DNA of 64,000 nt, taken from the NCBI RefSeq assembly GCF_040958095.1, contig NC_091209.1:8832330-8896329 (forward strand), written 5' to 3'. The DNA comes from Procambarus clarkii. Its lineage: Eukaryota; Arthropoda; Malacostraca; Decapoda; Cambaridae. This document shows, piece after piece, positions 7,795 to 59,200 of the stretch; position 1 is the stretch's first letter; each line of letters opens with the position of its first letter. The notes under the pieces were generated by a model. The model did not search any database, had not been told where the DNA came from, and was given only the letters and a program-made list of their open reading frames with translations. Made by a program: the position numbers and the translations under genes.

Positions 7795-8115
7795 CCCACC
7801 ACCATCCCCACCACCACCACCACCACCACCACCATCATCATCATCATCCCCACCACCACTACCCCACTACCCCCACCACTACCCTCCCACCACCACCATC
7901 ATCATCATCATCCCCACCACCACTACCCCACTACCCCCACCACTACCCTCCCCACCACCACCACCACCACCATCATCATCATCATCCCCACCACCACCAC
8001 CACCCCACTACCCCCACCACCACCATCACCACAAACACCACCCCACTATTTATTTATTTATTTATAACACCACTAACACCACCACCAACGCCACCAACAC
8101 CACCACGCCACCAAC
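7795..8115. repeat. Compound CAC/CAT/CCAC simple repeat
   Basis: Blocks of (CAC)n, (ATC)n and CCACTACCC alternate, with an internal duplication of about 75 bp around CATCATCATCATCCCCACC. A TATTTATTTATTTAT run interrupts at 8047-8065. Long open frames of proline, histidine and serine across it are artefacts. Confidence 0.9.
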
Positions 8116-8739: not shown

Positions 8740-9085
8740 CTGCCTATCAGTAGGCTTTTATATTTATATATGCAAGAGTAATTATAAGGAGAAGGCGCAA
8801 AGCCATTACGACTATATACAGAGTTCTTACATTATTTTAACGCCACTAGCATGCATGGCGTTTTGGGCAGGTCCGTAATCTTAATTTTCCCTGGAATACG
8901 ACCCGCCACATCGTTTAAGAACCAGGTACCCATTCACTGCCGAGTGAACAGAGGCGTACAGTTAAGGATTGGCGCCCAATCAATCCTCCCCGGCCAGGAT
9001 ACGAACCCAGGCCAAAATGCTGGCGAAGCGCGGGGCGAGTGTGTTAGCACTGCGCCACGAGGACCCGCAAGGCGTGTTCGTTTCC
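8740..9085 (-). mobile_element. tRNA-derived SINE, full-length-looking copy
   Basis: On the minus strand it starts GGTCCTCGTGGCGCAGTGC (A-box region), has a B-box GGGTTCGTATCC, then GGCCGGGGAGGATTGATTGG, a body with GTCGTATTCCAGGGAA and GGACCTGCCC, and a tail with TATATAGTCGTAATGGCTTT. The same family is at 28372-28660. The 3' tail module resembles that of the different SINE at 34548-34745. Confidence 0.7.
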
Positions 9086-18120: not shown

Positions 18121-21100
18121 TGCTATTAGGCTGTCCTCATATATCCCAGCTCCTAGGCTGTCCTCATATATCCCAGCTCCTAGGCTGTCCTCATATATCC
18201 CAGCTCCTAGGCTGTCCTCATATATCCCAGCTCCTAGGCTGTCCTCATATATCCCAGCTCCTAGGCTGTCCTCATATATCCCAGCTCCTAGGCTGTCCTC
18301 ATATATCCCAGCTCCTAGGCTGTCCTCATATATCCCAGCTCCTAGGCTGTCCTCATATATCCCAGCTCCTAGGCTGTCCTCATATATCCCAGCTCCTAGG
18401 CTGTCCTCATATATCCCAGCTCCTAGGCTGTCCTCATATATCCCAGCTCCTAGGCTGTCCTCATATATCCCAGCTCCTAGGCTGTCCTCATATATCCCAG
18501 CTCCTAGGCTGTCCTCATATATCCCAGCTCCTAGGCTGTCCTCATATATCCCAGCTCCTAGGCTGTCCTCATATATCCCAGCTCCTAGGCTGTCCTCATA
18601 TATCCCAGCTCCTAGGCTGTCCTCATATATCCCAGCTCCTAGGCTGTCCTCATATATCCCAGCTCCTAGGCTGTCCTCATATATCCCAGCTCCTAGGCTG
18701 TCCTCATATATCCCAGCTCCTAGGCTGTCCTCATATATCCCAGCTCCTAGGCTGTCCTCATATATCCCAGCTCCTAGGCTGTCCTCATATATCCCAGCTC
18801 CTAGGCTGTCCTCATATATCCCAGCTCCTAGGCTGTCCTCATATATCCCAGCTCCTAGGCTGTCCTCATATATCCCAGCTCCTAGGCTGTCCTCATATAT
18901 CCCAGCTCCTAGGCTGTCCTCATATATCCCAGCTCCTAGGCTGTCCTCATATATCCCAGCTCCTAGGCTGTCCTCATATATCCCAGCTCCTAGGCTGTCC
19001 TCATATATCCCAGCTCCTAGGCTGTCCTCATATATCCCAGCTCCTAGGCTGTCCTCATATATCCCAGCTCCTAGGCTGTCCTCATATATCCCAGCTCCTA
19101 GGCTGTCCTCATATATCCCAGCTCCTAGGCTGTCCTCATATATCCCAGCTCCTAGGCTGTCCTCATATATCCCAGCTCCTAGGCTGTCCTCATATATCCC
19201 AGCTACTAGGCTGTCCTCATATATCCCAGCTCCTAGGCTGTCCTCATATATCCCAGCTCCTAGGCTGTCCTCATATATCCCAGCTCCTAGGCTGTCCTCA
19301 TATATCCCAGCTCCTAGGCTGTCCTCATATATCCCAGCTCCTAGGCTGTCCTCATATATCCCAGCTCCTAGGCTGTCCTCATATATCCCAGCTCCTAGGC
19401 TGTCCTCATATATCCCAGCTCCTAGGCTGTCCTCATATATCCCAGCTCCTAGGCTGTCCTCATATATCCCAGCTCCTAGGCTGTCCTCATATATCCCAGC
19501 TCCTAGGCTGTCCTCATATATCCCAGCTCCTAGGCTGTCCTCATATATCCCAGCTCCTAGGCTGTCCTCATATATCCCAGCTCCTAGGCTGTCCTCATAT
19601 ATCCCAGCTCCTAGGCTGTCCTCATATATCCCAGCTCCTAGGCTGTCCTCATATATCCCAGCTCCTAGGCTGTCCTCATATATCCCAGCTCCTAGGCTGT
19701 CCTCATATATCCCAGCTCCTAGGCTGTCCTCATATATCCCAGCTCCTAGGCTGTCCTCATATATCCCAGCTCCTAGGCTGTCCTCATATATCCCAGCTCC
19801 TAGGCTGTCCTCATATATCCCAGCTCCTAGGCTGTCCTCATATATCCCAGCTCCTAGGCTGTCCTCATATACCCCAGCTCCTAGGTTGTCCTCATATATC
19901 CCAGCTCCTAGGCTGTCCTCATACCCCAGCTCCTAGGTTGTCCTCATATATCCCAGCTCCTAGGCTGTCCTCATACCCTAGGTTGTCCTCATATATCCCA
20001 GCTCCTAGGCTGTCCTTATATCCCAGCTCCTAGGCTGTCCTCATACCCTAGGTTGTCCTCATATATCCCAGCTCCTAGGCTGTCCTCATATACCCCAGCT
20101 CCTAGGTTGTCCTCATATATCCCAGCTCCTAGGCTGTCCTCATATACCCCAGCTCCTAGGTTGTCCTCATATATCCCAGCTCCTAGGCTGTCCTCATATA
20201 CCCCAGCTCCTAGGTTGTCCTCATATATCCCAGCTCCTAGGCTGTCCTCATACCCCAGCTCCTAGGTTGTCCTCATATATCCCAGCTCCTAGGCTGTCCT
20301 CATATACCCCAGCTCCTAGGTTGTCCTCATATATCCCAGCTCCTAGGCTGTCCTCATATACCCCAGCTCCTAGGTTGTCCTCATATATCCCAGCTCCTAG
20401 GCTGTCCTCATATACCCCAGCTCCTAGGTTGTCCTCATATATCCCAGCTCCTAGGCTGTCCTCATACCCCAGCTCCTAGGTTGTCCTCATATATCCCAGC
20501 TCCTAGGCTGTCCTCATATACCCCAGCTCCTAGGTTGTCCTCATATATCCCAGCTCCTAGGCTGTCCTCATATACCCCAGCTCCTAGGTTGTCCTCATAT
20601 ATCCCAGCTCCTAGGCTGTCCTCATATACCCCAGCTCCTAGGTTGTCCTCATATATCCCAGCTCCTAGGCTGTCCTCAAATACCCCCAGCTCCTAGGTTG
20701 TCCTCATATATCCCAGCTCCTAGGCTGTCCTCATATACCCCAGCTCCTAGGCTGTCCTCATATACCCCAGCTCCTAGGTTGTCCTCATATATCCCAGCTC
20801 CTAGGCTGTCCTCATATACCCCAGCTCCTAGGCTGTCCTCATATACCCCAGCTCCTAGGTTGTCCTCATATATCCCAGCTCCTAGGCTGTCCTCATATAC
20901 CCCAGCTCCTAGGCTGTCCTCATATACCCCAGCTCCTAGGTTGTCCTCATATATCCCAGCTCCTAGGCTGTCCTCATATACCCCAGCTCCTAGGCTGTCC
21001 TCATATACCCCAGCTCCTAGGTTGTCCTCATATATCCCAGCTCCTAGGCTGTCCTCATATACCCCAGCTCCTAGGCTATCCTCATATATCCCAGCTCCTA

Positions 21101-22150
21101 GGCTGTCCTCATATACCCCAGCTCCTAGGTTGTCCTCATATATCCCAGCTCCTAGGCTGTCCTCATATACCCCAGCTCCTAGGTTGTCCTCATATATCCC
21201 AGCTCCTAGGCTGTCCTCATATACCCCAGCTCCTAGGCTGTCCTCATATATCCCAGCTCCTAGGTTGTCCTCATATATCCCAGCTCCTAGGTTGTCCTCA
21301 TATATCCCAGCTCCTAGGTTGTCCTCATATACCCCAGCTCCTAGGTTGTCCTCATATACCCCAGCTCCTAGGTTGTCCTCATATATCCCAGCTCCTAGGT
21401 TGTCCTCATATATCCCAGCTCCTAGGCTGTCCTCATATACCCCAGCTCCTAGGTTGTCCTCATATATCCCAGCTCCTAGGCTGTCCTCATATACCCCAGC
21501 TCCTAGGCTGTCCTCATATATCCCAGCTCCTAGGCTGTCCTCATATACCCCAGCTCCTAGGTTGTCCTCATATATCCCAGCTCCTAGGTTGTCCTCATAT
21601 ATCCCAGCTCCTAGGTTGTCCTCATATATCCCAGCTCCTAGGTTGTCCTCATATATCCCAGCTCCTAGGTTGTCCTCATATATCCCAGCTCCTAGGTTGT
21701 CCTCATATATCCCAGCTCCTAGGTTGTCCTCATATACCCCAGCTCCTAGGTTGTCCTCATATACCCCAGCTCCTAGGTTGTCCTCATATATCCCAGCTCC
21801 TAGGTTGTCCTCATATATCCCAGCTCCTAGGTTGTCCTCATATATCCCAGCTCCTAGGTTGTCCTCATATATCCCAGCTCCTAGGTTGTCCTCATATATC
21901 CCAGCTCCTAGGTTGTCCTCATATATCCCAGCTCCTAGGTTGTCCTCATATATCCCAGCTCCTAGGTTGTCCTCATATATCCCAGCTCCTAGGTTGTCCT
22001 CATATATCCCAGCTCCTAGGTTGTCCTCATATATCCCAGCTCCTAGGTTGTCCTCATATATCCCAGCTCCTAGGTTGTCCTCATACCCCAGATCCTAGGC
22101 TGTCTTCATATACCCCAGCTCCTAGGCTGTCCTTATATCCCAGCTCCTAG
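18121..22150. repeat. 27-bp minisatellite, about 149 copies, AvrII site in each unit
   Basis: The unit contains CCTAGGCTGTCCTCATATAT followed by CCCAGCT. From 18124 to about 19860 roughly 64 units are almost identical (one A substitution near 19206). From 19860 rightward, TATATC/TATACC and GGCTG/GGTTG variants appear in patterns: three 214-bp blocks of eight units starting at 20053, 20267 and 20481, then an 81-bp three-unit pattern from 20698. From about 21560 it is homogeneous for the GGTTG form. Because 27 is a multiple of three, frames of 612 and 637 codons stay open; these are repeat artefacts. Confidence 0.97.
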
Positions 22151-23604: not shown

Positions 23605-23628
23605 ATTATATATATATATATATATATA
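23605..23628. repeat. (TA)n microsatellite
   Basis: An uninterrupted TA run directly abutting the left end of the MITE at 23629. Confidence 0.9.
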
Positions 23629-24000
23629 TGTCGTACCTAGTAGCCAGAACGCACTCCTCAGCCTACTATGCAAGGCCCGATTTGCCTAATAAGCCAAGTT
23701 TTCCTGAATTAATATCTTTTCTCTAATTTTTTTCTTATGAAATGATAAAGCTACCCATTTCATTATGTATGAGGTAAATTTTTTTTATTGGAGTTAAAAT
23801 TAACGCAGATATATGACCGAACCTATCCAACCCTACCTAACCTAACCTAACCTATCTTTATAGGTTAGGTTAGGTAGCCGAAAATGTTAGGTTAGGTTAC
23901 GTAGGTTAGGTTGTCGAAAAACAATTCATGAAAACTAGGCTTATTAGGCAAATCGGGCCTTGCATGGTAGGCTGAGAAGTGCGTTCTGGCTACTAGGTAC

Positions 24001-24004
<4 letters not shown>
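23629..24004. mobile_element. Foldback MITE inside a TA microsatellite, with TTAGG-type loop
   Basis: The termini are inverted repeats of about 75 bp (TGTCGTACCTAGTAGCCAGA at the left; its complement TCTGGCTACTAGGTACGACA at the right). The loop has TTAGG-type telomere-like words in both orientations (CCTAACCTAACCTAACC at about 23833-23850, GGTTAGGTTAGG at 23862-23910). Both outer flanks are TA runs, which fits insertion at a TA target or into an existing microsatellite. There is no open frame of note. Confidence 0.75.

Positions 24005-24093
<89 letters not shown>
24005..24093. repeat. (TA)n microsatellite
   Basis: A near-perfect TA run of about 90 bp between the MITE and the first inverted copy of the 260-bp unit. 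A single T-for-A interruption is at 24061-24063. Confidence 0.95.
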
Positions 24094-24096
<3 letters not shown>

Positions 24097-26432
24097 AACA
24101 AGCCTGAATGGTCCCCAGGACAATATGCAACTGAAAACTCACACCCCAGAAGTGACTCGAACCCATACTCCCAGGAGCAACGCAACTGCTATGTACAAGA
24201 CGCCTTAATCCACTTGACCATCACGACCGGACATAATGAGGTGATAGCCGAAGCTATTTGAGCCACCCCACCGCCGGCACTCGGATAGTAATCTTGGGCA
24301 TAGCATTTTACCAAATCACCTCATTCTTTGGGGCACACGTGAGGAACACAAATGCGAACAAGCCTGAATGGTCCCCAGGACAATATGCAACTGAAAACTC
24401 ACACCCCAGAAGTGACTCGAACCCATACTCCCAGGAGCACTATAGAAGATTACTATCCGAGTGCCGGCGGTGGGGTGGCTCAAATAGCTTCGGCTATCAC
24501 CTCATTATGTCCGGTCGTGATGGTCAAGTGGATTAAGGCGTCTTGTACATACCAGTTGCGTTGCTCCTGGGAGTATGGGTTCGAGTCACTTCTGGGGTGT
24601 GAGTTTTCAGTTGCATATTGTCCTGGGGACCATTCAGGCTTGTTCGCATTTGTGTTCCTCACGTGTGCCCCAAAGAATGAGGTGATTTGGTAAAATGCTA
24701 TGCCCAAGATTACTATCCGAGTGCCTGCGGTGGGGTGGCTCAAATAGCTTCGGCTATCACCTCATTATGTCCGGTCGTGATGGTCAAGTGGATTAAGGCG
24801 TCTTGTACATACCAGTTGCGTTGCTCCTGGGAGTATGGGTTCGAGTCACTTCTGGGGTGTGAGTTTTCAGTTGCATATTGTCCTGGGGACCATTCAGGCT
24901 TGTTCGCATTTGTGTTCCTCACGTGTGCCCCAAAGAATGAGGTGATTTGGTAAAATGCTATGCCCAAGATTACTATCCGAGTGCCGGCGGTGGGGTGGCT
25001 CAAATAGCTTCGGCTATCACCTCATTATGTCCGGTCGTGATGGTCAAGTGGATTAAGGCGTCTTGTACATACCAGTTGCGTTGCTCCTGGGAGTATGGGT
25101 TCGAGTCACTTCTGGGGTGTGAGTTTTCAGTTGCATATTGTCCTGGGGACCATTCAGGCTTGTTCGCATTTGTGTTCCTCACGTGTGCCCCAAAGAATGA
25201 GGTGATTTGGTAAAATGCTATGCCCAAGATTACTATCCGAGTGCCGGCGGTGGGGTGGCTCAAATAGCTTCGGCTATCACCTCATTATGTCCGGTCGTGA
25301 TGGTCAAGTGGATTAAGGCGTCTTGTACATACCAGTTGCGTTGCTCCTGGGAGTATGGGTTCGAGTCACTTCTGGGGTGTGAGTTTTCAGTTGCATATTG
25401 TCCTGGGGACCATTCAGGCTTGTTCGCATTTGTGTTCCTCACGTGTCCCCCAAAAAATGAGGTGATTTGGTAAAATGCTATGCCCAAGATTACTATCCGA
25501 GTGCCGGCGGTGGGGTGGCTCAAATAGCTTCGGCTATCACCTCATTATGTCCGGTCGTGTTCTTCAAGTGGATTAAGGCGTCTTGTACATACCAGTTGCG
25601 TTGCTCCTGGGAGTATGGGTTCGAGTCACTTCTGGGGTGTGAGTTTTCAGTTGCATATTGTCCTGGGGACCATTCAGGCTTGTTCGCATTTGTGTTCCTC
25701 ACGTGTGCCCCAAAGAATGAGGTGATTTGGTAAAATGCTATGCCCAAGATTACTATCCGAGTGCCGGCGGTGGGGTGGCTCAAATAGCTTCGGCTATCAC
25801 CTCATTATGTCCGGTCGTGATGGTCAAGTGGATTAAGGCGTCTTGTACATACCAGTTGCGTTGCTCCTGGGAGTATGGGTTCGAGTCACTTCTGGGGTGT
25901 GAGTTTTCAGTTGCATATTGTCCTGGGGACCATTCAGGCTTGTTCGCATTTGTGTTCCTCACGTGTGCCCCAAAGAATGAGGTGATTTGGTAAAATGCTA
26001 TGCCCAAGATTACTATCCGAGTGCCGGCGGTGGGGTGGCTCAAATAGCTTCGGCTATCACCTCATTATGTCCGGTCGTGATGGTCAAGTGGATTAAGGCG
26101 TCTTGTACATACCAGTTGCGTTGCTCCTGGGAGTATGGGTTCGAGTCACTTCTGGGGTGTGAGTTTTCAGTTGCATATTGTCCTGGGGACCATTCAGGCT
26201 TGTTCGCATTTGTGTTCCTCACGTGTGCCCCAAAGAATGAGGTGATTTGGTAAAATGCTATGCCCAAGATTACTATCCGAGTGCCGGCGGTGGGGTGGCT
26301 CAAATAGCTTCGGCTATCACCTCATTATGTCCGGTCGTGATGGTCAAGTGGATTAAGGCGTCTTGTACATACCAGTTGCGTTGCTCCTGGGAGTATGGGT
26401 TCGAGTCACTTCTTGGGTGTGAGTTTTCAGTT
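24094..26432. repeat. 260-bp tandem array made of a tRNA-derived SINE, with an inversion
   Basis: Unit landmarks recur exactly every 260 bp on the plus strand at 24448, 24708, 24968, 25228, 25488, 25748, 26008 and 26268, the last unit being partial. To the left lie one complete unit and one partial unit in the opposite orientation (24094-24353, 24354-24443). Each unit holds an A-box-like TGGTCAAGTGGATTAAGGCG and a B-box GGGTTCGAGTC about 60 bp apart, as in a Ser/Leu-type tRNA head. Units are nearly identical, with isolated changes near 24725, 25447-25455 and 25559-25564. The array ends in (TA)n at 26433. The 87-88 codon frames on both strands are artefacts of the unit. Confidence 0.92.
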
Positions 26433-26470
26433 ATATATATATATATAAAGCATATGAGAGCGAGACTTAC

Positions 26471-26960
26471 CTTGTCTTGAAGAAGTACTGGTAGTGGCGG
26501 CGACATTCTCCCATCAAGAAACTTATATTATTTTCACTCCTCAAATATTATGCCACTAAGAGGTGTTGTCAAACCTTGACTGATCTTGTGAGACGTCACA
26601 AGCACTCAACACGAAGTGGTTGAAGGAGTTATTACATGATGATGTTGACACAGTGGTGAAGTATAGCTGGCAGAGAGCATGGCTTCCACTAGTTTATGCC
26701 TCACAAATCACTAATTTCTCCTGAGTTAGCATTTAGTTGTGCATAAGAAGAGGAGGAGCGTGTCTAGTTGCAGTGTCTGGCTACACAAGACGCCAATAAT
26801 TAGAGCACGGGCGCCGGATATAACATTTAGAAGTGAGGAGTTCCGCCACACTCACCCCCACCACCTGCTGCTGCTGCTCTCAGCCGCCAGACTCAAAACA
26901 TTGACATAATGCTTCACTCGCTTCACGTGTTCGAACTGCTCTTTTAGGAATTCTTCAATC
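26471..26960 (-). other. Possible first exon and promoter region of an unidentified minus-strand gene
   Basis: On the minus strand a strong donor, CAAG then GTAAGTC, ends a candidate exon at 26471. Two ATGs lie just upstream of it (complement of 26504-26506, giving MSPPLPVLLQDK to the donor in phase 0, and complement of 26512-26514). Further upstream is a CAG/CTG trinucleotide run (26868-26880) and GC-richer text as expected near a promoter. No downstream exon was recognised to the left, where the arrays begin. The call rests on splice-site quality alone. Confidence 0.25.
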
Positions 26961-27800: not shown

Positions 27801-27807
27801 TCCCAGT

Positions 27808-28368
27808 GATTGGGCACCAGTCCTTCCCTTTGTTCTGCCCCAGTGATTGGGCACCAGTCCTTCCCTTTTTTCTGCCCCAGTGATTGGGCACCAGTCCTTC
27901 CCTTTGTTCTGCCCCAGTGATTGGGCACCAGTCCTTCCCTTTGTTCTGCCCCAGTGATTGGGCACCAGTCCTTCCCTTTGTTCTGCCCCAGTGATTGGGC
28001 ACCAGTCCTTCCCTTTGTTCTGCCCCAGTGATTGGGCACCAGTCCTTCCCTTTGTTCTGCCCCAGTGATTGGGCACCAGTCCTTCCCTTTGTTCTGCCCC
28101 AGTGATTGGGCACCAGTCCTTCCCTTTGTTCTGCCCCAGTGATTGGGCACCAGTCCTTCCCTTTGTTCTGCCCCAGTGATTGGGCACCAGTCCTTCCCTT
28201 TGTTCTGCCCCAGTGATTGGGCACCAGTCCTTCCCTTTGTTCTGCCCCAGTGATTGGGCACCAGTCCTTCTCTCTGTTCTATCCCAGTGAATGGGCACCA
28301 GTCCTTCCCTCCGTTCTATCCCAGTGATTGGGCACCAGTCCTTCCCTCCGTTCTATCCCAGTGATTGG
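27808..28368. repeat. 37-bp minisatellite, about 15 copies, SINE-like unit
   Basis: The unit contains GATTGGGCACCAGTCCTTCC followed by CTTTGTTCTGCCCCAGT. The last three units change to CTCTGTTCTATCCC and CTCCGTTCTATCCC. The core TGGGCACCAGTCCTT closely matches TGGGCACCAATCCTTAATTG in the SINE that starts at the array's right edge, which suggests the array arose from SINE sequence. Frames of 140-173 codons on the minus strand are artefacts. Confidence 0.92.
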
Positions 28369-28371
28369 AAT

Positions 28372-28660
28372 AGAGCGGAGGTGGTGTGGTGGTAAGACAC
28401 TCGCCTGGCGTTTCGCGAGTGCTTTGGCCAGGGTTGGTATCCTCTGGCCGGAGAGGATTGACTGGGCACCAATCCTTAATTGTAGCCTCTGTTTACCCAA
28501 CAGTAAAATGGGTACTTTCTGATATGATTTGATTTGGCGGGTCGTATTCCAGGGAATATTAGGATTAAGGACCTGCCCGAAACGCTATGCGTGCTAGTGG
28601 CTGTACAAGAATGTAAAAACTCTTGTAAACATAAATAAATAAATTAATAAATAAATAAAG
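28372..28660 (+). mobile_element. tRNA-derived SINE
   Basis: GGTGTGGTGGTAAGACACTC is the A-box region, followed by a degenerate B-box (GGGTTGGTATCC), GGCCGGAGAGGATTGACTGG, a body with GTCGTATTCCAGGGAA and GGACCTGCCCGAAACGC, and a tail of AAATAAATAAATTAATAAAT. It is the same family as the minus-strand copy at 8740-9085 and directly abuts the 37-bp array. Confidence 0.7.
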
Positions 28661-28824
28661 GGATAGTGGCTCTCAGATAAATAATAATGCCAGATGTTTC
28701 AGGGATCTTCCCTATATAATTGTATTGACTATTAAAAGTACATTTTCTTAATCAATCAGTTAAATAACTTATTAAATTTTATTATATATTTTAAATTATT
28801 ATTAAGAATATATTCTAAGATACA

Positions 28825-28970
28825 TATCTTATCGCTGCCCGAAACGCTTTGCGTAATAGTGGCTTTAGGTATTGTATGTACTAGCTCTATTTATAAATCT
28901 ATCAATTTTTGTAAAATCTCTTGTATATATGTACCTTACCTGAATAAACATTTATTTATTATTTATATAG
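28825..28970 (+). mobile_element. 3' tail of the LINE or SINE family seen at 13625
   Basis: GCCCGAAACGCTTTGCGTAA, GGCTTTAGGTATTGTATGTA and ATGTACCTTACCTGAATAAA lead into TTTATTTATTATTTAT. The copy is 5'-truncated and closely matches 13625-13772. It ends only about 100 bp before the THOC5 start codon. Confidence 0.6.
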
Positions 28971-29071: not shown

Positions 29072-29257
29072 ATGGGACGAGGGGACGAAGATGGCGACAC
29101 GGGGACTCGAGAATCAAAACGTCGACGCAAAGCCGGGCCAGAGTTGACCAAGAAGCCTGGAGCAGCCGGAGAGGCTGAGAATGCGACCCCGACGCCCCCG
29201 ACGCCGGCCCGCACCCTGGCCAAGGAGAAGACTGTCACCATCACTGATTCTTACCAG
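29072..29257 (+). CDS. THOC5: THOC5 exon 1 (residues 1-62)
   Basis: It begins MGRGDEDGDTGTRESKRRRK, giving an acidic start and a classical monopartite nuclear localisation signal, then a proline- and threonine-rich linker. The donor is CCAG-GTAGGC at 29258, phase 0. Reading on past this donor reaches an in-frame TGA at 29399, so the donor used is the first one. The N-terminus is poorly conserved in the family, so this start rests on frame, NLS and GC-rich context. Confidence 0.8.
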
Positions 29258-32200
29258 GTAGGCCAGCATGAGACTCAAGGAAACTGTAGAAGGCCTGTTG
29301 GCCCATATGTGGCAGCTCCGAATTATGTCCACCAAACTCGTTCACATAACCACTATAGTGGCATGCGTTCACCAGTTCTGCGAACACATCATGCTGATTG
29401 ATACCAGGTGAGCCAGGATGGATGCTGTCCTGTCTTCAAATAACTGTTTTGTTCACAGTACGTTTCATATCTGTGAACCTTTTTTCCGCATATATGCGCT
29501 AACTTGTTTTTTCTAGTGCTTCGTATTGCAATAAAATAGAATTATTCAATTGAAACAAGTTGTTTTTCAGATAATAAATTAAGAATATTAATAAACAGAA
29601 TTTTACTCGCAAAGTGACTAAGATATGAACGATGTAAAACCAAAAATAGTTGAGAGTGGATTTCATAAATTGTGCCTGTAGCTGATTTGTGCTGTCTTCA
29701 GATTATTATCTTTTTTAAGCTCTATATAAAGCTTAAGTACAGTATGTATTTGTTTCTTTTGAATAAAGACAATAATCTAAATCTCGCCTATTACCATGTG
29801 ATAATGTTTTACATGTTCCCAAACTGATATTTAACATTTCAAGTTTAGAAACAATTATTTTTATAATTGTGTAAGTAACTCACTTTCTCAGATACATGGA
29901 GCATCTTATCCAGGAAGATCAGAATAATGGAATGAGTTATTAAGGTGCAGTGCATAAAGTTGTTCTGAGAATGACTAAAAAATTTGTGTTACTTTCACTT
30001 CAGGAATTAATGATAAATACATTTAGTTCCTGTTTTTCACTTAAAGCAGCATGTGCCAGCAAGCTGCTAAATATTATGTTTGTAGCATTTGCTGTATATA
30101 TGTTGCAGCAATAATAATAGTTAAGAGTGGCTAGATAGCTTTTAGATTCAATGTTATCTCCTTTTCCAACTCCATTCATAAAAGCATTTGCATTTGGTCG
30201 TAAAAATACAATTGTATGCTGCAATGCCAGTTTCTACCCAACTTAGTAATTTCACTACCCGCCCACAGTTAAATAGGGGCGGTTGAGTAAACAATGTGCC
30301 TGCTTCACGTGTTCACATTCCAACTTGAGCTAACTAGATTACTAAATATGTTAAGTAAATGATATCGTTTGAGTAATGTGTTAATAGAAACTAAAAGAAT
30401 TTCATCTTGCAGGCAAGTTTGGACCATGAATGTCTGGAGGCTCAAGAGAGAACAGAGGAAGAAGACCAGAAGCTTGTGGCTGCCATTATGCAACAGATAC
30501 GATCTCTGATGAAAGAAATTCTCAAACTGAAGCTTGACAGGCCAGACCAGGTAAATACTTCTTAATAAAAAAATCTACTTTACAGTATTATGCATCATGT
30601 AACTATAATTGAATGAATTGCAATAGAACAGTACCTACAGTGGGCCAGAAATAATTGGCTACTGGACAACCTAGATACTGTACCTGTATAAAGAAACAGG
30701 GTCTTTATATGTTGACCAGACCACACACTAGAAGGTGAAGGGACGACGACATTTCGGTCCGTCCTGGACCATTCTCAAGTCGATTGTGAGAATGAACAAT
30801 CGACTTGAGAATGGTCCAGGACGGACCGAAACGTCGTCGTCCCTTCACCTTCTAGTGTGTGGTCTGGTCAACATACTTTAGCCACGTTATTGTGACTCAT
30901 CGCCTGCATAGGGTCTTTGTATGACTTAGATGATATGATACTGTATTCTGAACCAACTCAATGCAGATCCCACTTTTCTATAAATTTGTTGCCAAATCAT
31001 GCAGAGACTTAATGGATAAGAGAGGTGGACCATCTCTGACTAAATGGTGTGCATGATCATAAACCTGATCATACTCAGATTTATGGGAATGGAGTCCTGG
31101 ATATTTCTATTGTCTGTTTAATCTGAAAGTTCAGATAATCAGGGTCTCGGATTAACCATAAAATGGCTAATCCAAAATAATGTCGCTTGCTAGGTATCTG
31201 GACATCCTACTGTCGGGGCCGAAATAATGGGTAATTTACTAATTTCAAACGTAAGTTACATTGATATAAATATGTCAAGTACTGTACTAGATATTTTTCA
31301 TCCAGTGAAGATCATGAGTTGCAGATACAATTTAGTAAACTATTGTTAAATCTCTTATAATGCAGTACCTATTTACACTATAATCTGGCAACCTGTCCTT
31401 TCAAAATAGTACATCGCATTTTGACATATAATTCCCCAATGGCCAAAATACAATGTTTTATAAATCATAGCGACTCAAAATTTATGGGCTGTCATGTTTT
31501 TGGTTAGGTTAAGTTCTGGCAATTTAGCACACCATTTTTGTAATGTGGCAGCTCGCAAGGATGGGTGGAATCTGGTATGGGTATGGACCTACATACATGG
31601 GTATGTGTTAACGTGCTGATGGTGGAGAAGGAAATGAACTGAAAAGAATTTTGCAGAGGAGACAGTGTGAATGAGCGAGTGTGTGAGGATGAAGTGCAAG
31701 GGTCCTGAACCTGGTGTCGGAGAGGCTGCATGATCCAAGTAAGTTCAGTAAAATTTCTGGTTTCAACTCTTCATGCCGTAGCTCAGTCGATTAAGGCAGC
31801 GTCTGGGATGCTCTCGGACACAGGTTCAAATCCTCTTCACGGCCCTTGTGGATTTGTTCAAGAGTATTATGTGTTTGATGTGTCAGTGTGTTGAAACACT
31901 TCTTCACTGATTTAATCACCTCTCATAGATATATCAGTTGTCACACGATATTTCACTCTTCTCACATTATCAAATCTAATCATGTTCACATTAGCATCTC
32001 TTTCATCACTTCCACCCATTAGAAGAAGCCCCCACCAACTCTCCTCTTCACCATTTACCATTTTACCATTGCTATCTTGGGCATTCCCATATACCCATCA
32101 GCGTCTCCCTGCTACACTTCCTTATTATTTTCAAAAGATTTTACTGTTTTCAAAATAATTTTCTTTCATTTTCTCTTTATCTCTTCATTTACTTTTTTTT

Positions 32201-38200: not shown

Positions 38201-41200
38201 CAAACTGAATGAATAGTCCAACAGGTCCTTGTGTCTGGCATCAATATTCATAAAGAAATGTAAAGTACCAGTAGCGAGAGCACTCAGCGTAATATGGAGA
38301 AAGAGCCTGGATACAGGGGAGATACCAGCAGCACTTAAATCTGCAGATATAGCTCCGTTGCACAAGGGGGGGAGTAAAGCCTTGGCAAAAAATTATAGGC
38401 CAGTTGCACTAACATCACACATAATAAAAGTGTTTGAAAGAGTGATTAGGAATCAAATTTCTAGTTTTATGGAAAACAATGAATTGCACAATCCAGGACA
38501 ACATGGATTTAGAGCGGGAAGATCCTGTCTGTCACAGTTACTCAACCACTATGACAAAATCATAGAAGCCCTAGAAGAAAAGCAAAATGCAGATGTTGTA
38601 TACACAGACTTTGCAAAGGCGTTCGACAAATGTGACCATGAGGTGATAGCTCACAAAATGAGGTCAATGGGAATAACTGGAAAAGTAGGACGCTGGATAC
38701 TCAATTTCCTGTCGAACAGAACACAAAGAGTAACAGTCAATCAGATAAAATCGAGTCCAAGCGATGTTAAAAGCTCTGTACCTCAAGGTACAGTCCTTGC
38801 ACCGCTACTGTTCCTTATTCTCATATCTGATATAGACAAAAATACACGCCACAGCTTCGTGTCGTCCTTTGCAGATGACACAAAAATCAGCATGAAAATT
38901 ACCTCTGCTGAAGACATTGAAAAACTACAAGCAGATGTCAACAAAGTTTTTGATTGGGCAGCAGAAAATAACATGATGTTTAACAGTGATAAATTTCAGG
39001 TACTCAGGTACGGCAAAAATGAGGATCTGAAACATAATACAGGGTACAAAACACAATCGAATCTTCCCATAGTAGAAAAACAGCATGTCAAGGATTTGGG
39101 AATAATGATGTCCGACGATCTAACGTTTAGGGAGCATAACCAAGCAAATATCGCGTCAGCCAGAAAAATGATCGGATGGATTACGAGAACTTTCAAATCC
39201 AGGGATCCCATCACAATGGTTGTACTCTTCAAGTCACTTGTGCTGTCCCGTCTCGAGTACTGCTCAGTACTCACTTCCCCCTTCAGAGCAGGAGAGATTG
39301 CTGAAATAGAGGGAATACAGAGAACATATACGGCACGCATAGACGAGATAAAACACCTAAATTATTGGGATCGTCTCAAAGCTCTCCAAATGTACTCTCT
39401 AGAAAGGAGATGAGAGAGATACCAAATAATATACACATGGAAAATACTGGAGGGTCAGGTCCCAAATCTACACAGTAAAATAACAACGTACTGGAGTGAA
39501 CGATATGGAAGAAAATGCAAGATTGAACCAGTGAAGAGCAGAGGTGCCATAGGCACAATCAGAGAGCACTGTATAAACATCAGGGGTCCGCGGTTGTTCA
39601 ACGTCCTCCCAGCGAGCATAAGAAATATTGCCGGAACAACCGTGGACATCTTCAAGAGAAAACTGGACGGTTTTCTAAGAGAAGTTCCGGATCAGCCGGG
39701 CTGTGGTGAGTACGTGGCCCTGCGGGCCGCTCCAAGCAACAGCCTGGTGGACCAAACTCTCACAAGTCGAGCCTGGCCTCGGGCCGGGCTTGGGGAGTAG
39801 AAGAACTCCCAGAACCCCATCAACCAGGTATCAACCAGCAGTAAGGCCAGAAAATAGTGCAAGATGTGAGGCCAAGACTCGGACGTAAGAGACTCGGGTA
39901 CGACAAGATAGTAGTCCCAGTCAGCCTGACAGGAAACATAACGTGGGTAATGTAACCATGTGATTTGTCTTGTGAGGCATGTCAAGGAATAACTTGATGT
40001 AAAAGACTATTGCTTGGAACTGCCCACAGGCCCACATATCCATTACAACCCGGTTGGTCTGGCATTTCCTGTTGGAACTTGACTTAATTGTTTGTTAAAA
40101 ATATTCAATATTGTTCAGGCACTTTCTTGTGTTGAGAATATTATATGTATTTTTATTATATGAATTCTTTCAGGCTACTCGTCCACTTCAAGATGCTTTG
40201 GACTTGCCAATAGATGCCAAGAGGGAGCAGCAGAGGATAGTACAACTACTGCCAAGTCCTCTGTACACTCTTTGGGTGCAGGTCAGTTGACCACTGAAGT
40301 ATTTTCAATATGTTGAATATTGACACCTTGTTAAATTGTGGTTTATATTCTAAAATTAATGTACTGTAATATGTCATATATTGGATTATTTGTAATTCCC
40401 CATCTTGCTACTCAACATAAAATAAATGAAACCATATTTATACTGAGAAATATTACTATGAGACCTTAAAATCTGATTAGGTCCAAGATCAAAATATTTC
40501 GCTTTCGTTCCTTTTTAAGTGTAGATTTTGTTATTTGTTTTCAGTCATGTTATTGTGATTTATTCTCTGCATAAATTACCATCATTGATAATTATGTTGC
40601 ATTCATGTTTTGAGTACATAGTTTGATTGTTACTACCCATACTTAACCAGGCATCATCATATGGGGAAGCATTTGACCCCAGCATTAAGGTTGAAGTCTT
40701 TGGAGATGTTGATGCTGCCAAGAAGCTCATCGTCAAAGAGGAAGATTCCAGAACTGAAAATCTGTCTGAGTCTGAAAATGATCAGGATCAACAGGAGGTG
40801 AGTGAATGTTGGCTATAAGCTAAACAATGTTGACCCACTTGTGTTTGGAGTTCTGTAAGTGTTTATATCTAATGTTAATGCTTGGGGTCAGGTAAGTGTA
40901 TCCTGGTCACTAACTATGTAACACTATAAATAATGTAGGATAAAACCCAGACTTAGGTATTTCTGAAATTTATGTAAAGACTTACACCAAGTCTTTTGCA
41001 TTCTCCTGTGTGCTTTGTCTAGGTCTGAGTATGTGGTATGAGTACAAAGCAAGCACTTAACTGCATTGTTAAAAATTGTCACAGGAGAATCTGTCTCGAA
41101 AGAAGCGCAATCGGAAGTCACAGAAAATGGATGCCGAAGACATAGATGATGGATTGAAGCAGATACTAGGACTACATCCACTCTTTGTTAAGATCAACGT

Positions 41201-44200: not shown

Positions 44201-47200
44201 AGCGAAGTGTGAATTTCTGGAATTTTGCCCTTTCTAGAAATGTTTGACGGTGGCTCCCTCTTGCTAGCTGCCTGGTTGGCTCCAAGGAGGAGTGCACAGC
44301 CTCATTTTAAGGCATGCTCTTTATACTCTTGGTGTCAAAGACTAGTTTTTACCTTCAGAGTCTGATAAGCCTCTGCAGTATATGCTGTGTTATGGGATGG
44401 ATTTGCCCCACTGAGCCCAGACTTGCTGGTGCAAGTTTGTGAGTATTATAAAATATGTTAGTAAATATAACGTTTTTAACAATGATAAAGATATCTGAAC
44501 TTACTGCAAAAAGTATGCATTAAATGTAGGAGATGGTACATTAAATGAAGCACAAGAATACTGTTACAGTATAGCATTGATTATTTAATGTTACATTTTA
44601 TATTGTGCAATGATTTTTCAAAATGTTCTGCAAGAGTTATTGTAGAAATAACTGCAATATATGGATTTACAGTATACAGTAGAATGACTGTTCTGTTCAC
44701 TTTGAAAATATGCTGTTTTCAATAGTTTTGATAACAAAATGTATTCAGCAGTGTTTTCTTTAATTTACAATAATAAAAACACTAAAAGTTTAGTATAAAA
44801 TAATGAGAAATAGCTAAATTAAGATTTAGTAGAATACAGAGGAGCCTTAATTCACAAATTTAATCCATTCCGGCACCGAGCTCGTCGTTTGAAATGCTCG
44901 TCTTTCGAAACAAATTTCCCCATTTAAATTAATGGAAATAAAATTAATCAGTTCCACCATAAAAAAACATCAATATGATATTTGATTTTTAAATAATGGA
45001 GCAGCCTACCTGACATACACTGAATACAGTACACTGAACGAACCTTTATGACAATTTTTTATTTATTTTTTTTATTTATTTTTATTTATTTTTTTTATTT
45101 TTTTTTTTTATTTTTTTTTATTTTATAGAAAATGGAGCAGCCTACCTGACATATACTGAACGAACCTTTTCGACGTTTTAATTTTTTCAATTTTTTTAAT
45201 TTTTTCACTGGTTTTATTTTTTATAGAATATGGAGCAGCCTACCTGACATATACTGAATGAACCTTTTTGACATTTTCTTTCTTTCAAATTTGTTCAATT
45301 TTTTTATTTTTTATTTTTTTTTATTTTTTAGCAGCCTACCTGACATACACTGAACAAACCTTTTGACATTTGTTCTTTTTTCAAATTTTTTATTTTTTTT
45401 TAATTTCTAAAAAAAAAAATCAATGCTTTTGCAACATTACAGCAGTCACTCCTTTACATCCCTGCATCATTACCATCTTTTAATACAAAATCATTGATTT
45501 GCATTGTTGGAGGCATCTGGGAATTTGTGAGAACCAGTGGGAACGCTAGGAAGCACCACATGGTTTTCTCGTTAATGGAGCGAAAGCTCGTCAATCGAGA
45601 CAAATTTTCGGCGAGTGGCGAGCTCGTTACTCAAAATGTTGGTAGATGGAGCTTCTCATCACTCGAGGTTCCACTGTACTTGTAAGAGTGAAAAGGGTCG
45701 TGCAAATCTGTCAGCTCAAGCGAGAGTACACTGTGCTTTTATACTGCTATGTCATGCCAGTAGAGTGGATTGTCATGGAAAATTTCTCTCTTTAGAGATG
45801 TGATCAGTGGAGATACACTCTTGAACTGTCTCTTCCCTGATGATGATGGGCAGACATCACCAAATCCGGCCAACTTCTTCCAGCTGAACCGTCTGCGGAT
45901 TAATCTATCTGATCATCTCACTACGACTGGTAGACCATACAAGTGGGCTCAGACCTTGGCTGGTTTATCATTTTCAAATTCAAAACAGTCATGTGTTGGT
46001 GGTGAAGAGTCTCAAGAAATGGTAAGACAAAGTGTTTTCTTATTGTAGCATGTCTAATCTAGCATCATAATTTTGCTAGGCAATACAGTATATGTTTTCA
46101 GGGACTTGCAGAGAGTTGAGTGTTCTTGAAGGCCTGTTACCAGGATGTGAGAGATTATTCACAGGGTTGCTGCAAGGGTTACAGCTTAAAAACTCATTGG
46201 TGCACAAAGTTAATCACATTAATAATGGTAATGTAATAATAAAGATAAGTACTAATAATAATCATTTCATTTCGTAGTAAAAGTATAGTAAATTTGTTCG
46301 GTTTTATTGTGTTTTCAAAACTTGGGTCTTAATTTCTTAACATAGTTCTGGTAATAAAAATGTTGTCTGTATTGGGCCACAAGAATACAAGTTTGAAGAA
46401 TATTGCAATATTCTTTGTCGGTGTGTGATGTCAAGCAGTGGTTAGTGCGGTTGTTGAGTACACATGAATGAACCTTCTAGAGGTCATTACTAGCTGGAGT
46501 GAACATTTTCCAGTGCACCAGTATGACCCTAATGTGAGGGCTTGGAAAGTTTGTTGCTGTACTGGTGCAGGATGTTGACCTTCCCAATGTAAGCATGATC
46601 CTTTTCATGGCGCCAATGAGCTCTTGCATTGGGGAGCAACCGAGTAGGGCTTTACAATTTGTGTGCTATCATGTCTTCATTTTTCCCAATATATTAGTTG
46701 TATTACCTTTATTCTTTCTGCTAACCTCAATTTCTTATGCTTCATCATCACCCATCTCATAAGTTAGCACTATGCCTTCTCTAATTTTATGTTTTGTAAT
46801 GTATTCTACACCACTGTTATGAATTTCAATTTGGGTCTGACAAAAGCTGTAAGAAATTTTTTGGTCTATTTTCATTCTTATACACAAAGACTATATTGTC
46901 AATATTTATAAATTCTTATGTATATCGTATGTTCTTGCAGGTAGGCAGGATTACTCTCATTCTTGGAGTTTGTTCACTTTTTGTATCTAAGTAACTTACT
47001 CTCATTTTGATATGACTCATTTCTACAGTTAAAGCTGCTGAATTGGCCTCAACTACCTCTTCAAGTTTCTATGTCCTCAGGTGCTACTGATACTTATGAC
47101 TTATTGACTGGGTACCAGTCCTTAATTGTTTGCCCCTTTTCACTCAGCAGTAGTTAAGGACCTGGTTGTTAACCGATTGGTGGGGTTCATGGTCCAGGGA

Positions 47201-56200: not shown

Positions 56201-59200
56201 TCTCGCAGTGATCGCCTTCATCTCCTCCCATTGATTTTATACCGACTGGCAGTTTGTTTAGACGTATACACCGAGGCATACAGTGCCCACGCTGATGCTA
56301 GGGGACCAGATGCACAGTTTCATAAGGAAAAAATATTTTTCAGACCTGCCAGGTACGTTCAGGTGGGCGAAACCTACAGTACTCGTCAATAATATATGAC
56401 CGCCTACTCGGGGCAGTGTGTAATTATGACAAAAACAAAAAATTCTGGTCTTGAGGATGAAAGATTGTAGATGGAATGTATGTGTACTTTGCACAATGTC
56501 ACAGTGTGCACTACTTCCCTGGAGCCACACAGCTGTGATGTTTAGTTAGCCCTGGGCATTCATAGTGAGCAGTTGTGTTTCCTGCTTCGCTCTGGCACTT
56601 TGCCATGTTTTATTGCAGTTATGAGTAGTTGTGGTATGACGTTGCTCTTTTGACACCCACAAAATAAAGAAACCATTGCTCAGATCAATGCTATAAACGA
56701 AGCAGGTCACCAAATTTAATTGTTGGGTGTAGCCAAGTTTCTAGGAGGACCACACCAATGTTTCTGTGATGGAATGTCACCACAGCTTTTCCTCTTGGAA
56801 GTGTGCACAGTACTTTCTCGCGTTGACTTGGCTACACCCAACAATTAACTTTGGTGACCTGCTTCGTTTAACCCCTTAACTGCGTTGCCTCCAAATGTGA
56901 CACTCCCGCAGTGCACAGGAAATAAATTCTCTGGAAAAAATTATTTTTTCTTTTTAGTGTCAAAAACCCTTCCCTCAGTATGTGTATGTAAAAAAAAATC
57001 GAAATTGTACTTACTTTGGCTGCTATGGGGTCCGGAAGTTGGGGCGTGACGTCATCATTCCCCGTGCGCCTGTGCCATAAGCTCTCGGGGGCGGTGGGGC
57101 GCTCGGGGCGGGGCGCGCGAGTTGCCGCGAATATATTTTCGTTCATTTTTTGCGCACCTTTACAAATACATTTTCATTGTTTTTATGTGCCAATCTAATG
57201 TATAATGAACACGTACACTATAATATCGCAGTACAACATCCGTACTGTCCGTAGACACTGTGTTACGTGCATGAAACTTGTGTACACATATGCAGCACAT
57301 AATTACTATGTATCATGCTAATTTGTGTATATATACAATCTATTTACACACTATACACTGTCACACACTAAATACATTCACCATCAACACGTTCAGAGCA
57401 CCGCGAGTGAGAGCTGCCACACCCAGCCAGCCCTCCCTAACTTCTCCAACATTGTATTCGCCGACTTTGCCCCTCCCATCATACAGTTATTCACACCAAT
57501 ATTTCATGTTCATTTATGTATATTTACAACATATGTACTCACTATACACTGTCACACACTATATACATTTACCATCAACACATTCAGAACATCGCGTAGC
57601 AACTGCTTCGTATGGGCCAATAGCAGCTGCCCCGTATGGGCCAATAGCAGCTGCCCCGTATGGGCCAATAGCAGCTGCCCCGTATGGGCCAATAGCAGCT
57701 GCCTCGTATGGGCCAATAGCAGCTGCCTCGTATGGGCCAATAGCAGCTGCCTCGTATGGGCCAATAGCAGCTGCCCGTATGGGCCAATAGCAGCTGCCCG
57801 TATGGGCCAATAGCAGCTGCCTCGTATGGGCCAATAGCAGCTGCCCCATATGGGCCAGTAGCAGCTGCCCCGTATGGGCCAGTAGCAGCTGCCCCGTATG
57901 GGCCAGTAGCAGCTGCCCCGTATGGGCCAATAGCAGCTGCCCCGTATGGGCCAATAGCAGCTGCCCCGTATGGGCCAATAGCAGCTGCCCCGTATGGGCC
58001 AATAGCAGCTGCCCCGTATGGGCCAATAGCAGCTGCCGCATATGGGCCAATAAGAGCTGAAAAGGAACCTAAGAAATCATTCGAAGATTCCTAGATGAAC
58101 GAAATAATGCTGTGGTGCTGTGGCTAGCGCTGTGAACATCGTGAACAGCATTGAATCACTGATATTTGAACATTGTACCCAGTCATTATCACACTCAGGC
58201 TCTAATATAACACTATCATAGCTAAATAATACAAGTTATATATATATTTTGACATTATTAGGCGATGCTGTGGTCACATGCTGAACAGCAGTGCTGTGCG
58301 CTCATGCTGCGAGCGCCAGCCTTGGTTGCTCACACACTACTGAGGCTCCCACACCCAGGAATGTGGACCACGATTTTTTTTAAAGATGGCGTCTGTTTAC
58401 AAGAGCCCTGAGGAAGCTGATGTGAACCCCATGTAGCCGCGGGAGTTTTGAATGGAACGTGAAAAATACAAATACCCGGAGGCGCGTTGCGCAAACCAGA
58501 CGTGAGCCTGCTGGCGCGTTGCGCAGTTTAAGGGTTAAAGCATTGATCTGAGCAATGGTTTCTTTATTTTGTGGGTGTCAAAAGAGCAACGTCATACCAC
58601 AACTACTCATAACTGCAATAAAACATGGCAAGGTGCCAGAGCGAAGCAGGAAACACAACTGCTCACTATGAATGCCCAGGGCCAACTAAGCATCACAGCT
58701 GTGTGGCTCCAGGGAAGTAGTGCACACTATGACATTGTAAACAGAAGTATGTGCCAGGTACACAACCTTTCATACACAAGACCAGATTTATTTTTTGGCA
58801 TAATTTATTCACCATCCCGAGCAGAGCAACGCATACTTTTGACAAATACCAGTAACCACAATGTATGTGGTGGTGTTCCAGGAATTTACTTTTTTTTGTT
58901 TTTGTTTTTATTTTGGGGGGGGGGCACAAATGTGGAAAAAATTTAAAACTATTATATTTGTCATATACAACAGTGTACTTAAATTTACAATTTCATAAAA
59001 TCATTGAATGGCCAGGCCTGGGTCAAGATTCATCAAGCCGTTACACAAGTACCTATGAACCTGTACATCTTTGCTCAGTCTTTGGCGGCTTTGTCTGCAT
59101 TTATTATATAGGTTGCGAGCATTGAAACTTCCCGATCAAATGTCGTTATTGTTATAAATAGTTTCTTAGTGCTTTGGAGCTCATACACTGCTTACATTTA

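Follow-up and report, generated by a model that had tools for sequence, protein, structure and literature searches.

SINE-derived satellites (sSats) of squamate reptiles are tandem repeats formed from part of a SINE (PMC10702118). According to the available portion of that study, sSat arrays range from a few units upward, the unit in snakes contains a B-box, the terminal units often reach the end of the SINE, and the units sometimes include tens of base pairs of unknown origin. Full-length SINE multimers have also been described in jerboas, where up to eight Dip copies are joined in tandem (cited in PMC10702118). The Hy/Pol III satellite of European plethodontid salamanders and Satellite 1 of Xenopus laevis derive from SINE-like elements, as described in the accessible text of PMC6947457. 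In decapod genomes, SINEs are few and satellite families are many, and recent SINE peaks are given for P. monodon and two Procambarus species in the accessible part of the comparison (PMC10454600). A crayfish repeat study recorded one SINE cluster, accounting for 0.07% of the genome, and neither tRNA nor the number 260 is mentioned in its available portion (PMC7859515). No title on a decapod SINE-derived tandem array was found among the matches listed in our literature search, which is weak evidence given that subscription literature is poorly covered, and the literal sequence strings from this analysis also had no match in that search. Early stages of such arrays bear on the beginnings of satellites, a process described as nonrandom in the available text of the squamate study (PMC10702118).

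In this study, we analysed a 64-kb window of Procambarus clarkii DNA (the whole stretch of 64,000 nucleotides) containing a single tandem array of a 260-bp unit, with a total span of approximately 2.3 kb. We consider it probable that a SINE-like sequence derived from tRNA-Leu, together with approximately 120 bp of other DNA, underwent recent amplification into a short array at an (AT)n tract upstream of THOC5. The array looks like an ordinary recent expansion of approximately nine copies with one end flipped, similar in type to expansions described before in other animals. That placement applies if the SINE-like source holds; otherwise, the array would be a local tandem repeat, part of which derives from tRNA-Leu. 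The array is placed with the known kind by its tandem form, because SINE-derived tandem repeats have been published for other animals, as far as the accessible parts of these reports extend (PMC10702118, PMC6947457). It resembles the sSats in this form and in including sequence of unknown origin, and differs from them, as they are described in the available text, in that each unit combines both boxes with approximately 120 bp of such sequence and in that one end is inverted. Its units are approximately 99% uniform, compared with mean similarities of 63 to 97% in the accessible sSat data, and the SINE families behind the sSats are known as dispersed copies, whereas the crayfish unit is known from one 64-kb window (PMC10702118). 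The Dip multimers, as cited there, join full-length copies, whereas the strict 260-bp unit of the array includes sequence of unknown origin beyond the tRNA-like part. The Hy/Pol III satellite, Satellite 1 and, probably, the present array are, as far as the available descriptions go, all tandem families related to SINE-like elements, a comparison made at the level of kind. Both of the amphibian families possess an internal Pol III promoter, which has a candidate counterpart in the boxes of the present unit. They are whole-genome satellites, whereas the array here is one short array. The label 'satellite' is too strong, because one 2.3-kb array was seen, and satellite families form long arrays at multiple chromosomal locations. 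The value of the locus lies in presenting a very young tRNA-derived element in passage from a (probably) dispersed repeat to a tandem repeat, with an inversion and private variants.

Tandem Repeats Finder reported the forward part of the array at 24446-26432 on the plus strand, with a period of 260, 7.6 copies, 99% matches and 0% indels. Unit-by-unit comparison in register resolved this part into seven full 260-bp units, starting at 24446, 24706, 24966, 25226, 25486, 25746 and 26006, and an incomplete eighth unit of 167 bp (26266-26432). The earlier note had described eight head-to-tail copies with a strict 260-bp period and two copies at the left facing the other way; the period was confirmed, the count of full copies was reduced to seven plus the partial unit, and the inversion was found to comprise approximately 1.33 units instead of two. 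This inverted part, delimited by inverted-repeat search and alignment, covers 346 bp (24094-24439, minus strand); read along its minus strand, it consists of unit positions 117-260 followed by 1-204, and complementarity between its long arms and the forward units is 98-100%. The two orientations are separated by the 6-bp filler CTATAG (24440-24445), which is its own reverse complement. The junction reads ...CCCAGGAGCA, CTATAG, AAGATTAC..., and the change of orientation is as abrupt as had been claimed. Within the 260-bp unit, an 11-bp inverted repeat was also observed (positions 51-61 and 231-241).

Compared with the reference unit, the forward units showed 0, 1, 0, 2, 3, 0, 0 and 1 differences in order. 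Seven variable sites were detected among the eight forward units, each private to one unit, and three of the seven are clustered at positions 75, 77 and 78 of the unit at 25486-25745, where they may reflect a single event. The mean pairwise difference among the seven full units was 1.71 per 260 bp, and the inverted part carries one difference from the unit that is present in no forward unit. The units are near-identical and their variants are private to single units; therefore, the amplification looks recent, and the approximately 99% identity supports the recent amplification proposed in the earlier note. As all seven variable sites are private, a nested duplication history is invisible, and the pattern fits both one quick burst and thorough recent homogenisation. 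The same variants bear on the idea that a collapsed or chimeric join during assembly or library preparation is responsible for the inversion or for the number of copies. Short reads give unreliable counts of near-identical 260-bp units, and artefactual palindromic joins are well known. However, several units possess private variants, the reverse part has its own variant, a 6-bp filler lies at the join, and the flanks are unlike each other, with a foldback element on the left and unrelated sequence on the right, and we regard such an artefact as highly improbable.

Both outer ends of the array meet (AT)n, thereby bearing out the (TA)n tracts reported at both ends in the earlier note. On the left, an (AT)45 tract with one interruption (24004-24093), identified by Tandem Repeats Finder and tract search, lies between the array and a foldback (MITE-like) element and borders both; on the right, a (TA)8 tract (26432-26447) follows unit position 167. 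The foldback element (23607-24026), identified by inverted-repeat and tract searches, has 104-bp arms that are 96% complementary, with (AT)n on both sides. TTAGG-like repeats were observed in its loop. Tracts of (AT)6 or longer occur at three places only in the 64-kb window, each edging the array or the foldback element, and for this reason a single (AT)n tract may have been the site of both events.

The array ends differ in unit position, at 204 on the left and 167 on the right, and the forward array begins at unit position 1 while the outer end of the inverted part is position 204. In register, the locus lacks approximately 56 bp and the join has gained 6 bp, so a simple flip of the left end in place does not fit and was rejected. 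At the left join, AT is common to the unit and the tract (TTCGCAT followed by ATAT...), which is what microhomology joining would predict; the right join has no clean overlap, as the unit breaks off at TT (167), whereas the ATAT of the unit itself would start three bases further on. In the reading that we prefer, the SINE-like tRNA-Leu-derived sequence and its approximately 120 bp of other DNA would have been amplified beside or inside the (AT)n tract. The copies would have arisen in one fast burst, by rolling-circle or replication-based amplification, or would have been homogenised later. The inversion would have arisen by fold-back or microhomology-mediated joining, and the likeliest route would be template switching or microhomology-mediated joining.

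Alternatively, the inverted and forward blocks could stem from a single retrotransposition in which a long array transcript entered an (AT)n target and twin priming produced the inversion. The arrangement of an antisense segment on the left and a sense segment on the right with simple repeat at both ends accords with such an event, as do the two nucleotides (AT) shared at the left join, and a LINE reverse-transcriptase open reading frame is present in the window (38217-39413, plus strand; RVT_1, E 1.4e-30), located between two exons of THOC5. However, a Pol III transcript should terminate at the T4 run of the unit, the two ends differ in where they leave the unit (positions 204 and 167), an inversion has no informative register in an array with a 260-bp period, and a target-site duplication is unreadable in the (AT)n flanks. 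We consider this origin very unlikely, and recent local amplification with microhomology-mediated joining is retained as the preferred explanation.

Strict A-box and B-box motifs, 58 bp apart, were detected in seven of the eight forward units. In the first forward unit, the A-box TGGTCAAGTGG lies at 24521-24531 and the B-box GTTCGAGTC, which starts 58 bp past the A-box start, lies at 24579-24587, both on the plus strand. The exception is the unit at 25486-25745, in which the last two of the three clustered substitutions break the A-box; the earlier claim that every copy contains both boxes thus stands for the other seven forward units and fails for this one. In the inverted part, the motif search revealed one complete A+B pair (24162-24220, minus strand; box starts 24220 and 24162) and one lone B-box (start 24422, minus strand). 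In total, the array contains ten B-boxes, eight of which are paired with an A-box. A TTTT run occurs 16 bp past the B-box in each unit (unit positions 159-162; 24604-24607, plus strand, in the first forward unit) and is a candidate Pol III terminator. The shuffle test outside the array, in which spacings of 36-75 were accepted, yielded a mean of 0.45 chance A+B pairs per shuffle (60 shuffles of 61,643 bp, both strands). The real sequence outside the array holds one strict pair (31779/31824), which is part of a different repeat, and 7 of 5000 shuffles of the unit held an A+B pair on the forward strand.

The boxes lie within a tRNA-Leu-like head, which was located by local alignment to tRNA-Leu-CAG at unit positions 69-149 (24514-24594, plus strand, in the first forward unit) and recurs every 260 bp. 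The unit was aligned with 11 human tRNA sequences, and the shuffles used for comparison preserved base composition only. Human tRNA-Leu-CAG gave the top score among these 11, at 47 against a shuffle maximum of 30; none of 500 tRNA shuffles reached 47, and 55 of 77 aligned bases were identical, with 7 gap positions. Weaker signals were given by Arg-TCG (1/500), Leu-AAG (1/500, with an alignment out of register) and Ser-AGA (4/500), and the remaining seven scored no better than shuffles (78 to 421 of 500). For the rest of the window, 982 stretches of 260 bp were scored at a step of 130 on both strands; with the 40 stretches near or in the array set aside, the maximum was 31 and none of 942 reached 47. 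The A-to-B spacing of 58 fits tRNAs with a long variable arm (Leu or Ser). The motif and alignment results support descent of the unit head from tRNA-Leu, in line with the tRNA-derived region with Pol III boxes proposed in the earlier note (score 47, boxes in register). As in a SINE, a 5' tRNA-derived head was found in which the A- and B-boxes are spaced as in a tRNA (58 bp, eight intact pairs).

Rfam gave no match in 24400-24980 up to E 10 and no known RNA in the unit when the whole window was searched at the gathering score. ARAGORN reported no tRNA at the default setting or at the 95% threshold; at thresholds of 80% or lower, it reported a low-scoring Asp with a long intron (16-154) and a Gly (148-228), and never Leu. 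Inspection of the T-stem of the tRNA-like part revealed two mismatches. By these results, the head has ceased to be a tRNA. A cluster of working tRNA-Leu genes was rejected, the units having no Rfam or default ARAGORN tRNA call. A structured RNA unit was also without support, with a folding z-score of -1.34 and 18 of 200 shuffles folding equally well.

The array could also be a local tandem repeat or satellite in which the tRNA-like part came directly from a tRNA-Leu gene or pseudogene and not from a dispersed SINE. The confinement of the tRNA-Leu alignment to positions 69-149 favours this source, as does the distribution of the unit: a search of the window with the unit revealed no further copy elsewhere. 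On the other side, the tRNA part falls far short of a functional tRNA, and the minus strand of the left-most copy ends in ...TTCGCAT and runs directly into (AT)n, which looks like the 3' end of a retroposon with a simple-repeat tail. This resemblance to a SINE tail is a hint, which a breakpoint with AT microhomology would explain equally well. We judge a direct tRNA-Leu source unlikely, and a SINE-like source is preferred. A 3' end shared with the LINE at 38217 was rejected, as a 25-bp unit stretch (at most three mismatches) is absent from the 3' region of that element; its nine matches in the window are all inside the array. Exact patterns of the unit or its pieces had no match in viral and genome contig collections, and blastn of two units had no match in plasmids and phages. 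Exact patterns from the foldback element and from two other SINE-like repeats likewise had no match in viral contigs. As described, none of the collections includes animal genomes, so the lack of a match in prokaryote, phage, plasmid and viral sequences says little and is what an animal repeat would be expected to give.

The array ends approximately 2.6 kb upstream of the ATG at 29072, the probable start of THOC5. The assignment of the THOC5 gene (29072-59846, plus strand) draws on tblastn and Pfam. With a human query, 11 of 13 tblastn rows formed a collinear series on the plus strand between 32857 and 59846 (E 6.5e-20 to 0.55), and the two out-of-order rows (12949 and 39226; E 3.9 and 4.4) were dropped. 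Pfam FmiP_Thoc5 was detected in three of the five exons tested. Taken alone, THOC5 marks the window as no more than eukaryotic, very probably animal. The first exon has no tblastn row, and the placement of the first coding exon at 29072, read from the sequence, is probable. If the boxes work, the intact units are predicted to bind TFIIIC; as TTTT lies 16 bp past the B-box, an active unit would yield an RNA of approximately 95 nt ending at T4. The array is a possible dense cluster of putative Pol III starts or TFIIIC sites, although a T4 run closely follows every B-box, and active boxes would place a local cluster of TFIIIC sites beside a gene. In other respects, the array as observed is ordinary repeat turnover. 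In mouse, B2 SINEs are able to serve as boundaries of chromatin, according to the available part of PMC8136502; therefore, by analogy, a boundary role of the array is conceivable. The stronger proposal, that the ten B-boxes upstream of THOC5 form a TFIIIC-bound boundary or Pol III cluster, a new SINE-derived insulator, with the inverted end providing dsRNA that feeds a small-RNA pathway, appears to us highly doubtful. The array most likely has no selected function. A consensus splice donor (AAG/GTAAGT) was also observed near 26471 on the minus strand, with ATG codons ahead of it and approximately 40 bp from the last unit. By our estimate, chance alone would produce approximately one donor of this type per window; 26466-26510 (minus strand) may represent the first exon of a gene in head-to-head orientation.

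Several other repeats are present in the window. A dispersed tRNA-derived SINE-like family is represented at 31740-31900 and by four partial copies at 2546-2671, 1517-1592, 456-519 and 2430-2476 (82-93% identity), weaker rows having been dropped. A second dispersed SINE-like family, which ends in an AAAT-type repeat, is represented at 28369-28680, a start chosen by the author and not found independently, and by pieces at 8820-9016, 47103-47129 and 28835-28864; three simple-repeat rows at 8047-8065 were dropped. The element at 31740-31900 resembles the array in holding a strict A+B pair, and both families occur as repeated, diverged copies at several places. A search of the window with the array unit revealed no similarity to either element. 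Directly upstream of the SINE-like copy at 28369 lies a minisatellite (27802-28368) with 15.3 copies of a 37-bp unit, which matches 17 of 19 bases within that copy (score 28, shuffle maximum 22, 0/300, as the best of 30 comparisons). This match suggests that the minisatellite may be a second SINE-derived tandem repeat. Many long minisatellite arrays, with units mostly of 19-62 bp and up to 150 copies, were also observed at 1689-22150 and 57597-58059, crowding the left third of the window. One of these, at 18127-22150, has a 27-bp unit and several open frames, as 27 is a multiple of 3.
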